The notes under the pieces: model-generated
Databases searched by the model: none
Seen by the model: the letters and a program-made list of their open reading frames with translations, nothing else
What the model was told of the DNA's origin: nothing
DNA from: Cytophagales bacterium
Lineage (GTDB): Bacteria > Bacteroidota > Bacteroidia > Cytophagales > Spirosomataceae
NCBI GenBank assembly: GCA_004292855.1
Contig: RDXN01000076.1
Coordinates: 1-45,846, forward strand
Direction: 5' to 3'
Length of the DNA: 45,846 nucleotides
Shown here: in pieces, positions 5,710-40,651 of the stretch
Layout of the letters: every line of letters starts with the position of its first letter
Position numbering within the stretch: the first letter of the stretch is position 1
Translations under genes and position numbers: made by a program

Positions 5710-5726
5710 ATTGATTGCGGATTGAG

Positions 5727-5835
5727 GATTTGGGAACGGTCCGCCGTCGCGGTGCGGATTGATTGCTTAAGCAATAATGAACAGGCGTAAGTGCAACCCC
5801 AAATCCGCACCGCGACGGCGGACCGTTCCCAAATC
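5727..5835. repeat. Paired REP-like palindrome in ftsY leader (34-bp arms)
   Basis: Arms 5727-5760 and 5802-5835 are perfect reverse complements over 34 bases. Each arm contains CGGTCCGCCGTCGCGGT, whose centre CCGC-CGTC-GCGG (5741-5752) can itself fold as a mini-hairpin. The same core, with CGAA in the loop, is found in both arms of the element inside uvrA. The unit resembles an inverted pair of REP sequences (BIME). It ends 17 bases upstream of the ftsY start codon, so a transcript from the box at 5850-5857 would carry it. Confidence 0.85.
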
Positions 5836-5849
5836 CGAAATTTGATATG

Positions 5850-17833: not shown

Positions 17834-17864
17834 GACGTTGGATATTGGATGTTGGACGTTAGAC
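17834..17864. repeat. Core-less version of the uvrA repeat arm
   Basis: 17834-17850 matches 39911-39927 (the left part of the uvrA palindrome arm) at 16 of 17 bases, and 17851-17864 continues as GTTGGACGTTAGAC, matching the part of the arm that follows the 15-base core. In uvrA, CGGTCCGCCGAAGCG stands between these two parts; here it is missing. The segment abuts the hemC start codon on its upstream side. Confidence 0.75.
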
Positions 17865-37672: not shown

Positions 37673-40651
37673 CTAGAGCTTCTCCCGCAGAAAATCGGCC
37701 GTGAAGTTCTCACCTGTGGGCAGTTGCGCCATTTGTTCGGGCGTACCCTCAAAGGTTACGTAACCACCCGTATCGCCCCCCTCGGGGCCGAGGTCGATAA
37801 CGTGGTCAGCCGATTTAATGACCTCCATGTTGTGCTCGATGATGATGACCGAATCGCCCTGATCGACCAGCGCGTTGATGGCTTTGAGCAGTTTGCGGAT
37901 GTCGTGGAAGTGCAGGCCGGTGGTGGGTTCGTCAAAAATAAACAACGTGCTCCCTTTGTTTGGGTTGCCCTTGCCCAAAAACGACGCCAGTTTCACCCGT
38001 TGGGCTTCGCCCCCGGACAGCGTGTTGGCCGACTGACCCAGCCCGATATAACCCAGCCCAACCTCCTGCAACGGCAGGAGCTTCTCGGCCATTTTGGGTT
38101 CGGTTTTGCGGAAAAACTCAATGGCCTCATCGACAGTCAGGTCCAGGATATCGGAGATATTTTTCTCGCCTAATGTCACCTCCAGCACCTCCTGCTTAAA
38201 CCGGCGACCGTTGCAGCCTTCGCATTTCAGGTAAATGTCGGCCATAAACTGCATCTCGACCTTCACTTCGCCCTCACCCTGACACACCTCACACCGGCCC
38301 CCATCGACGTTAAACGAGAACTGACTCGGTTTATAACCCCTTGATTTTGATACCTGTTGATCGGCCATTACCTGCCGCAGGTAGTCGTATGCCTTGATGT
38401 AGGTCACGGGGTTCGAGCGGCTCGATTTGCCAATTGGGTTTTGGTCGATCATCTCGATGGCCTTAACCCGGTCCAAACTACCCGTTAATTCACTGTAGCG
38501 ACCTGCCTCTTCGGCAACGTCGCCTTTGGCCCGCGCCAATGCCGGATACAGCACCTTCCGAATGAGCGTACTCTTGCCCGATCCCGACACACCTGTCACA
38601 ACCGTCAGCGTGTTCAGCGGAAACCGCACGTCCACATATTTCAGGTTGTTCTCGTGCGCCCCTTTTAAGTCCAGAAAATGCGTAGCCTTCCGCCGGAACG
38701 ACGGCACGGCGATGGTCTCGCGCCCGGTAAGGAAGTCGAGAGTGTGGGACTGAAAGGAGTGAGGAGTGAGCGACCCGTCGGACCGCTCACTCCTCAAAGT
38801 TCCCTGAAACACCAAATGCCCCCCGCCCGTGCCAGCTTCGGGTCCGATGTCGATCAGTTGGTCGGCGGCCCGCATCACCTCTTCTTCGTGCTCAACCACA
38901 ATCACGGTGTTGCCCATGTCGCGCAGGGACTCTAACACGCTAACGAGCCGTTTGGTATCGCGTGGGTGCAGGCCGATGCTTGGCTCGTCGAGAATATACA
39001 TGGACCCCACCAGAGCCGACCCGAGCGACGTGGCGAGCTTAATGCGTTGATATTCTCCCCCCGACAGGCTGTTCGTAAGCCGGTTCAGGGTGAGGTAGCC
39101 CAGCCCAACCCGCTCCATGTAATCGAGCCGGTTTTGGACCTCAACCAGAATCCGGCTGGCGATTTTCTGCTGCATATCGGGCAGTTCGAGCGTGCGAAAA
39201 TAGGCCGCTACTTCGGTGATGGGTTTCAGTACTAAATCGGTGATCGAAACGCCCGACCCGTCGGCCCGGCCAATTTTCACGTAGTTTGCATCCTTTCGCA
39301 GGCGCGACCCCCGGCATTCGGGGCAGGTGGTTTTGCCCCGGTAGCGCGACAGCATCACGCGGTATTGCACCTTAAACGTCTGGCTTTCAACCCACGAAAA
39401 GAAATCGTACAGCCCCGAAAAAAACTGGTTACCCGTCCAGAGCAAGTCTTTTTGCTCAGGCGTGAGTTCTTTAAACGGTCGATGAATCGGAAAGTCGAAC
39501 CGGATGCCATTTTTGAGCAGGGGCTTCAGAAACTCCTCGCTCATTTTTTCGCTGCGCCAGGGCGCGATGGCCCCCTCGAACACGGACAGATTCTTGTCGG
39601 GCACGACCAAATCGGGGTCAATACCCAGCACCTTCCCGAAGCCGTCGCACCGGCGGCAGGCTCCGTAGGGGTTGTTGAACGTAAACAGGTTTACGCTCGG
39701 CTCCTCAAACGTGATCCCGTCGAGTTCAAACGTATCCGAGAATGTCCGCGATTCATTCCCCCCCTCACTCCCACCAACGATAGTCACCCGGCACACATTG
39801 CCGCCCTCATTGAAAGCCGTCTGTACCGAATCGGAGAGTCGATATTGGGTATCTTCGTCGGGTTGACCGTTGTCGTCGAACAACACGGTTCCCCGGTCGA
39901 TGAGGATTTCGACGTTGGATACTGGATCGGTCCGCCGAAGCGGTTGGACGTTGGACAACTCCGTGTCAACATTATCTAACGTCCAACCGCTTCGGCGGAC
40001 CGATCCACTATCCAACGTCTCCTCAATCTGCATCACCTCGCCATCCGCCACAATCCGGGTATAGCCCTTTTGGAGGAGAATTTTCAGCTCATAATCAAGC
40101 GTGCGCCCCTCGTGGATAATGAGCGGGGTGGTAATCATCACGCGTTGCGGACGACCGTCTTCGCCGGGGCGATGCCCGAAAATATAATTGACCACATCGG
40201 TCACGGTGTCGCGTTTTACCACCTGCCCCGACACGGGCGAGTAGGTCACCCCGGCCCGTGCGTAGAGCAGTTTCAGGTAGTCGTAGATTTCGGTACTTGT
40301 GCCCACGGTGGAGCGCGGATTACGGGTCGACACTTTTTGCTCAATGGCAATGGCGGGCGACACACCCCGGATGTACTCCACGTCGGGTTTTTCCATCCGG
40401 CCCAAAAACTGCCGGGCGTAGCTGCTCAGGCTCTCCACATACATACGCTGTCCCTCGGCAAAGAGCGTGTCGAACGCCAGCGACGATTTGCCCGACCCCG
40501 ACAGGCCCGTCAGGACAACCAGTTTATTGCGGGGAATAGCAACGTCAATGTTTTTCAGATTGTGTACTTTCGCGCCTTTGATGATAATAAATTGCTTCGG
40601 GTCGAGCGAGTCGACCGAAGCCACCGGGCGAGTGGGGGCAGTTGAGTTCAT
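37673..40651 (-). CDS. uvrA: Excinuclease ABC subunit A, with in-frame repeat insertions
   Basis: A 992-residue UvrA, longer than the usual about 940. It finds DNA lesions and loads UvrB in nucleotide excision repair. Visible: Walker [12 protein letters not shown] (48-58), [16 protein letters not shown], first zinc finger [10 protein letters not shown] and [26 protein letters not shown], second Walker [13 protein letters not shown], zinc finger [16 protein letters not shown] and [21 protein letters not shown] and [12 protein letters not shown]. Two segments do not resemble UvrA: about residues 211-247, encoded by a palindromic repeat (39911-40019), and about 618-634, encoded by a smaller palindrome (38761-38795). 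Both are in frame and lie at positions that are variable surface loops in other UvrA proteins. Confidence 0.97.
38761..38795. repeat. Small in-frame palindrome within uvrA
   Basis: GAGGAGTGAGCG (38761-38772) is the reverse complement of CGCTCACTCCTC (38784-38795). The centre, read on the minus strand as GCGGTCCGACGGGTCG (38786-38771), is identical over 16 bases to 174-189 at the left end of the window. It encodes part of [13 protein letters not shown] in UvrA. Confidence 0.8.
39911..40019. repeat. Paired REP-like palindrome inserted in frame in uvrA
   Basis: Arms 39911-39952 and 39978-40019 are reverse complements over 42 bases with one mismatch, around a 25-base centre. Each arm carries CGGTCCGCCGAAGCGGT with the mini-hairpin CCGC-CGAA-GCGG (39932-39943). 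The element is read through in uvrA as about 37 extra residues ([20 protein letters not shown] and onward to VSN), with no stop codon or frameshift. Confidence 0.9.

Follow-up and report, generated by a model that had tools for sequence, protein, structure and literature searches.

A palindrome read in frame within uvrA

REP-like palindromes that are read in frame within repair genes are known but unexplained, and the locus described here raises the question of what such an insert is made of and how it came to lie in uvrA. The gene belongs to a Cytophagales bacterium of the Spirosomataceae (assembly GCA_004292855.1), and the window, by which we mean the whole stretch of DNA that was analysed, comprises 45,846 nucleotides of contig RDXN01000076.1. 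As the initial annotation had claimed, a palindrome runs through the reading frame of uvrA without introducing a stop: the frame is open over 992 amino acids, and the palindrome encodes residues 212 to 247 (36 residues). The 42-bp arms with one mismatch that had been described form the core of the structure and enclose a loop of 25 nt; in full, the inverted arms (39911-39958 and 39972-40019) are 48 nt each, 94% complementary and separated by a 13-nt spacer. RNA folding of positions 39905-40025 gave -92.4 kcal/mol, with a mean of -36 for 200 shuffles (z = -14.7), and the palindrome is confirmed as real and far beyond chance. A search of Rfam returned four microRNA-family matches, all under the gathering scores.

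The palindrome consists of two nested repeats, an outer hairpin built of 7-bp units (heptads) of the form TTGGAYR and an inner 15-nt module that lies within each arm. The features of the locus are as follows.

37673-40651, minus strand: uvrA, 992 amino acids, open (ORF and Pfam)
39911-40019, minus strand: complete hairpin, in-frame residues 212-247 (arm alignment, fold and translation)
39911-39927, plus strand: first arm, outer 7-bp units, starting GACG
39928-39942, plus strand: 15-nt module CGGTCCGCCGAAGCG, copy 1 (genome-wide pattern count)
39943-39955, plus strand: first arm, inner 7-bp units
39959-39971, strand not applicable: loop separating the 48-nt arms (arm alignment)
39975-39987, minus strand: second arm, inner 7-bp units
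39988-40002, minus strand: 15-nt module CGGTCCGCCGAAGCG, copy 2, at the corresponding position in the second arm (genome-wide pattern count)
40003-40019, minus strand: second arm, outer 7-bp units, plus-strand end CGTC

The earlier description of the insert as a paired REP therefore holds in that it is palindromic and repeated elsewhere, but each arm is made of 7-bp units with a 15-nt module, and the whole is not a simple REP pair. The Pfam domain UvrA_inter (PF17760), which binds UvrB, matches residues 168-213 only, that is, up to the insert, and the interaction domain is thus split by the repeat. Our preferred reading, which we consider likely to be right, is that a mobile-like hairpin of heptads, with a 15-nt module in each arm, lies in a dispensable loop of UvrA and that the insert is tolerated there.

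Hairpins of 7-bp units are dispersed in the genome

The initial annotation had made its reading hang on further copies of the arm in the genome, and a search with the insert found partial copies at eight other places, the flanks common to them being 7-bp units. Three consecutive units (at most one mismatch) gave 93 matches in the genome, against 3 for the reversed control pattern. When 46 places were inspected, period-7 arms in inverted arrangement were found at 36 (uvrA and 35 more), and the other 10 carried units on one arm. The majority of heptad elements lack the module, and in several it is confined to a single arm. The window holds a second element:

17834-17863, plus strand: heptad element whose units were found on a single arm, intergenic, 4 nt from a predicted start codon

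Similar heptad units also occur in other genera of the family (matches against control, with genomes given as G numbers and loci below as L numbers: G019, 20 v 0; G012, 29 v 1; G008, 14 v 1); in G010 the pattern was not clean, with 57 matches and 38 for the reversed pattern. Among 40 loci fetched from relatives, 31, nearly all from G010 and G019, show three consecutive units, and 9 do not. Many hairpins with other 7- or 8-bp units (AATGNAN, GTTTNCR, GAGYGAAA) were seen in G002 (L241-L260) and in G010 and G028 (L261-L270), lag 7 being the top lag in 20 of 50 G002 arms; 100 kb of G036 held no such hairpin with arms of at least 18 nt.

A 15-nt module within the arms

The inner module, CGGTCCGCCGNNGCG, has 108 exact copies in the genome, the reversed control pattern having 0, and it folds with 4-bp stems. 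Its hosts are heptads, at least four other repeat families that also have empty copies, and tRNA-like sequences of relatives. Another hairpin of the window carries it in both arms, the dinucleotide of the module being TC and the host repeat a different one (GGATTTGGGAA...GTGCGGATT):

5726-5836, strand not applicable: hairpin with the module in both arms (5737-5751, plus strand; 5811-5825, minus strand)

As a 16-mer, the module was found in 18 of 296 Bacteroidota genomes, a set that includes only three of the family studied here; there were 108 copies in the own genome, 13 in G006 and 1-3 in each of the remaining 16, no more than the background set by the reversed pattern. A 21-mer with two mismatches allowed, searched in 59 genomes (its own and relatives), gave 55 matches in its own genome, 36 in G010, 38 in G028 and 32 in G052. 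The tRNA-like hosts carry the module next to GGTTC (L232 of G015, about 1495-1570; L233 of G029, 1501; L237 of G035, 3-93). L232 is, by eye, a filled tRNA-Thr-like copy beside an intact tRNA-Thr found by ARAGORN, and L237 still yields a 91-nt tRNA-Lys call from ARAGORN.

For 75 contexts, 9 of them matches in other organisms, n nucleotides were cut out, the flanks were joined and the result was sought in the fetched DNA only. The length of the empty site is directly seen: empty sites were found at 15 nt in 15 of the 75 contexts, at 16 nt in 5, at 14 nt in 4 and at 22 nt (the 15-nt module plus one heptad unit) in 7, with 0 for every other length from 5 to 25 nt; in 55 contexts, none of the lengths from 14 to 16 nt produced an empty match. 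With one mismatch allowed, a previous run had given 9, 5 and 2 of 74 contexts for 15, 16 and 14 nt and 0 for every remaining length between 9 and 21 nt. Filling of a heptad turns TTGGAT/GTTGGA into TTGGAT-(15 nt)-GTTGGA, and another repeat, GTCATCCCGAC/GCAGGAGGGATC, is present in both filled and empty forms. Some of the empty sites could be mimicked by heptads, which does not apply to those in the other repeat families. At L156:13927-14053, L157:1481-1603 and L159:2334-2458, the GTCATCCCGA repeat holds a different insert of about 16 nt, GGCWCCGGCCACCCGG, perhaps a second small module.

Of 42 collapsed contexts, 30 have a base before the module that is complementary to module base 11 (expectation 12.8; reached in 0 of 20,000 shuffles), and 4 more have G:T at that pair; among uncollapsed contexts the complement is present in 56 of 68 (19.6 expected), L068-L078 and L327-L333 having been left out of the count. 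Five other base pairs tried in the same contexts showed no such linkage. The twelve non-complement contexts, three tRNA-like ones among them, may have a shifted boundary, and the rule could equally reflect module subtypes choosing their sites or templating. In a G019 heptad the module follows C and carries GT, and in heptads of the own genome it follows T and carries AA in all the exact copies seen except one (L008, AC); such near-uniformity suggests that these copies may descend from one insertion that spread.

Analysis of 100 of the 108 copies found 16 inverted pairs within 250 bp, and the members of all 16 visibly share an identical variable dinucleotide (chance about 3e-9; 0 of 100,000 shuffles), which fits movement as a unit as well as copying between arms. 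Where two modules occur in one element, as in four cases, they are in exact register in three and, by eye, off by one unit in L005.

Inverted repeat pairs that form a hairpin, as these 16 do, are the mark of a classical REPIN, and such a pair might have been moved as a unit by the genome's own RAYT (Y1) transposase, with the heptads as mere flanks, a reading that we consider rather unlikely. The genome has eight Y1_Tnp matches, and one Y1 gene, on contig C108 (L020), lies within a repeat array with five module-like matches (at most two mismatches), where the control density predicts 0.5. That array, however, is a different repeat, GCCCCGCTAGGGGCTAAC..., some units of which contain, by eye, a module-like sequence of 15-16 nt as an insert. 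Neither exact TTGGANNTTGGA in the flanks of the eight Y1 genes (up to 1.5 kb per side) nor heptad pairs near them were found, and heptad elements with no module, or with one in a single arm, also speak against heptads as mere flanks.

Position of the hairpins at gene borders

According to an in-house gene caller, for which 446 kb of the genome served as training data, 5 of the 46 heptad places lie within genes and 41 outside. The stop-side distance is at most 33 nt in 29 of 30 cases, some of these being overlaps, and the start-side distance at most 14 nt in 18 of 52. As raw counts, the 41 elements fall in 26 tandem, 13 divergent and 2 convergent gaps, and control gaps of at least 60 nt number 144, 42 and 24; a preference for the upstream side of starts, based on orientation, was dropped for want of a clear difference from these control gaps.

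Closeness to stops, and often to starts, is what RNA elements such as terminators or translation controls would display, the uvrA copy then being misplaced, but we judge this improbable. The orientation classes just given weigh against it, and so do the arm mismatches: in elements of known transcript direction (own genome and relatives) they would give 39 G-U and 41 A-C oppositions in the sense RNA, and with no bias between the two, RNA-level selection via G-U pairs was rejected. The match between the two arms of one hairpin was 36.4, against 26.8 between arms of different hairpins (36 own-genome elements, optimised split), and in 30 module-free hairpins of the genome it was 31.3 v 28.3 (p 0.0006, midpoint split). 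Arms that are tied pairwise, with mismatches that show no RNA-strand preference, favour arm-to-arm copying or selection at the DNA level over selection at the level of the transcript.

For comparison with congeners, 40 of the 41 extragenic elements were kept (one had fewer than three units), and L012 was dropped for a stop in its segment; 31 of the resulting 39 were queried, and 22 sites were comparable. The orthologous gene pair was compared in G002 at 22 sites and in G003 also at three, giving 25 comparisons. The congener gap was at most 41 nt in six of these (window 17838, L008, L135 and L137 in G002; L005 and L109 in G003), and at the 17834-17863 element the G002 gap is 10 nt. L005 and L109 have G002 gaps of 60 and 100, unlike their short G003 gaps. 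A seventh short gap was seen by eye at L007, where the script had placed the boundary wrongly: the G003 counterpart is empty, a stop codon being followed by 12 nt and a start codon. Gaps of at most 40 nt account for 23% of tandem gaps but hold 0.7-0.8% of intergenic bases, and insertion therefore seems guided by the gene border and not by the length of free DNA.

At L109, L110, L117, L123, L129 and L130, the gap in G002 nearly matches or exceeds the length of the own gap, element included, and simple insertion is thus not readable there. One hairpin occupies the same position in the genome and in G002 (L133 and L290), and by eye its pairing has been kept through a change on both sides; remnants of hairpins were seen by eye in L281, L286 and L287. 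We dropped a claim of different hairpins at one gene gap in G002 (L220, L224, L225, L228) because hairpins are common in G002 gaps (44 of 140 gaps of 60-300 nt contain one regardless) and few of those at the compared gaps are unrelated: among 17 compared G002 gaps of at least 60 nt, 3 have an unrelated hairpin and 1 has a related hairpin at that threshold.

Heptads in proteins and the loop of UvrA

Eight proteins with heptads in frame were examined. Five belong to the own genome (UvrA, a hybrid kinase, an FG-GAP/UnbV protein, a CcmF-like protein and a protein without a Pfam match), two to G010 (DnaG primase and an AIRS-like protein) and one to G008 (an acyltransferase E2). In dnaG, the second replication/repair gene concerned, they lie in frame between the DnaB-binding match and the C terminus (L168, 1505-1542). 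All six single-arm intragenic copies (three own, three from G010 and G008) are read on the TCCAA strand, which gives mostly polar peptides, such as SNIQRPTS, and such a bias would be expected if only harmless readings survive. A design that is free of stops in all six frames was rejected as only partly borne out: of the six frames, 37 elements had on average 2.3 open and shuffles 1.4, with 3 in the uvrA copy.

UvrA was searched in 59 genomes (own and 58 others), and the 29 relatives with the best matches, whose loci were returned, were aligned. The palindrome segment was not found in UvrA of any of these 29 relatives (best of 58 searched), nor in that of the congener G003, as the initial annotation had anticipated, and its placing of the insert at a loop of variable length was also right, the loop having 13 to 39 residues in the 29 relatives. 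The own loop has 36, a difference of -3 to +23 from the relatives (median +20) and of +22 from the 14 residues of G003; the longest loop, that of G009 (39 residues), is unrelated to the insert in sequence. The "about 37 extra residues" of the annotation are close in number to the 36 encoded, but "extra" overstates the case, since these occupy the place of the native loop. G003 UvrA reads IEE-LLEQEAVLANSADL-ELLVDRG and the UvrA of the window IEE-36 residues-EILIDRG, and DNA alignment with the congeners G001, G002 and G003 directly shows no native loop remaining in the own uvrA. The receiver domain of the hybrid histidine kinase (L003) follows the same pattern, the native loop residues of congeners being absent, and in both genes the borders of the repeat are flush with conserved motifs on both sides. 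On these alignments, the hairpin stands in place of the native UvrA loop, whose loss may date from the insertion or from later. Single-sequence structure prediction for UvrA residues 118-285 gave a mean pLDDT of 50, unusable for loop placement.

An insert that is selected, altering the activity of UvrA, for example, towards higher mutation rates, seems to us highly improbable. Di Nocera et al. speculate on such an effect for repair genes, and REPs recur in repair/replication genes (PMC3733652), just as heptads do in the own uvrA and in dnaG of G010; the other carriers, from the kinase to the E2 enzyme, are nevertheless unrelated, and in G009 this loop of UvrA is filled by a longer segment of unrelated sequence. 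An assembly artefact, for which a draft genome of 108 contigs gives some occasion, is scarcely credible, since the open frame is preserved and a second in-frame copy, in L003, has the same replacement pattern. Variation in loop length among relatives might suggest a native UvrA loop or a chance palindrome, but this is already refuted by the similar sequence at eight other places, together with the fold and the absence from the 29 aligned relatives described above.

How the nested insert may have arisen

On our preferred reading, of a mobile-like hairpin tolerated in a UvrA loop, the outer layer would be a dispersed 7-bp-unit family, mostly of hairpins, mainly intergenic, near stop codons and often near start codons, and the module would have been inserted between two bases of one 7-bp unit. 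A heptad hairpin would have landed in the dispensable loop, and native loop codons would have been lost with its arrival or after it; a module would then have entered one arm, and the other arm would have been rewritten from the filled arm by copying across the hairpin. Alternatively, an already filled hairpin may have moved in as a unit. Copies would survive within genes where they leave the frame intact and the peptide that they add, mostly polar, can be tolerated, and we infer from this that UvrA most likely only tolerates the insert, with no gained function. No insertion event was observed in the single assembly of the own genome that was analysed, and no target duplication was established at the insertion sites.

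We propose more tentatively, and with somewhat less than even confidence, that the 15-nt module is itself an insertion unit, with one base set by, or chosen to pair with, the host base at the point of insertion (X-CGG-TCCG-CCG-X'), that the arms were then copied onto one another and that uvrA records both steps. Such a unit would be smaller than the mobile elements known to us, and a 15-nt passenger may be unusually small for mobile DNA. Movement of the unit, if real, would lower the known size limit of mobile DNA (the Nostoc repeats are reportedly of 21-27 nt) and would supply a concrete target-pairing rule, testable with Y1 transposases. Two layers can be told apart in the insert, each following rules that can be measured: a hairpin of period 7, and a 15-nt unit that has a defined empty site and a flank-complementary base. 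The insert is also a case of a repeat standing in place of a protein loop, not only lengthening it.

Comparison with known repeats

In-frame REPs, some of them in uvrA, are a published kind; what is new, within the open papers searched, is the make-up of a heptad hairpin that carries a 15-nt module. Open-licence literature searched for heptad hairpins or the 15-nt module gave no prior report, and a search for the letters CGGTCCGCCG gave no bacterial-repeat paper among the matches listed, as judged by titles and the starts of abstracts. The small dispersed repeats (SDR) of Nostoc described by Elhai and colleagues in 2008 are reportedly 21-27 nt long and embedded in tandem heptamers and other repeats. 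The module shares this embedding in heptameric repeats but differs in its length of 15 nt (minor lengths 14 and 16), the two being compared by description and not by sequence. The Nostoc repeats are also mentioned in four other papers (PMC4390886, PMC3733652, PMC3116915, PMC2884548).

The initial annotation had set the insert apart from the Rickettsia elements by its place in a Bacteroidota DNA-repair gene, but an insert in a repair gene is not without precedent. Intragenic REPs, many of which lie in repair genes, are the subject of Di Nocera et al. (2013), and the insertions listed there affect both uvrA copies of O. terrae, the Thioalkalivibrio uvrA and the R. conorii uvrB; CGTC repeats are reported in Bacteroidetes too (PMC3733652). 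The uvrA hairpin, being palindromic, multi-copy and in frame, resembles these GTAG/CGTC REPs, which occur as in-frame REPs or dimers inside uvrA and repair genes and in some species as dimers nested in longer palindromes (PMC3733652). They have stems of 5-13 bp (GTAG) or 8-9 bp with a 4-5 nt loop (CGTC) and an unpaired tag, which in the CGTC class is CGTC or a variant at one end (PMC3733652), whereas here the arms are of 7-bp units and up to 48 nt long with the module included, the stems of the module have 4 bp, and the outer GACG...CGTC belongs to the paired stem. The likeness to the palindromic elements of Rickettsia, which also lie in frame in genes (PMC3733652), can be accepted for an in-frame palindrome with copies elsewhere, by description and in an unrelated host. 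With REPINs and their RAYTs (PMC3116915), the present repeats share inverted pairs that form hairpins and the occurrence of Y1 transposases in the genome, but none of the eight Y1 genes was found flanked by heptads in the DNA fetched around them (up to 1.5 kb per side).

Repeats of seven nucleotides are known from other settings, among them TAACTGA heptamers near start codons (PMC4679880). In Nostoc, the P6b stem of the trnL intron consists of 7-nt units that fall into two classes, and one class has repeatedly taken over from the other at a given site (PMC4476775); Geobacter metallireducens has tandem heptanucleotide sites whose layout, strand-switching according to a figure legend, we take to represent hairpins (PMC2700814). 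These likewise have arms of 7-nt units and differ from the uvrA hairpin in unit sequences and contexts; the nested 15-nt module, which has no counterpart in the passages on either system (PMC4476775, PMC2700814), is a feature of the present hairpin.
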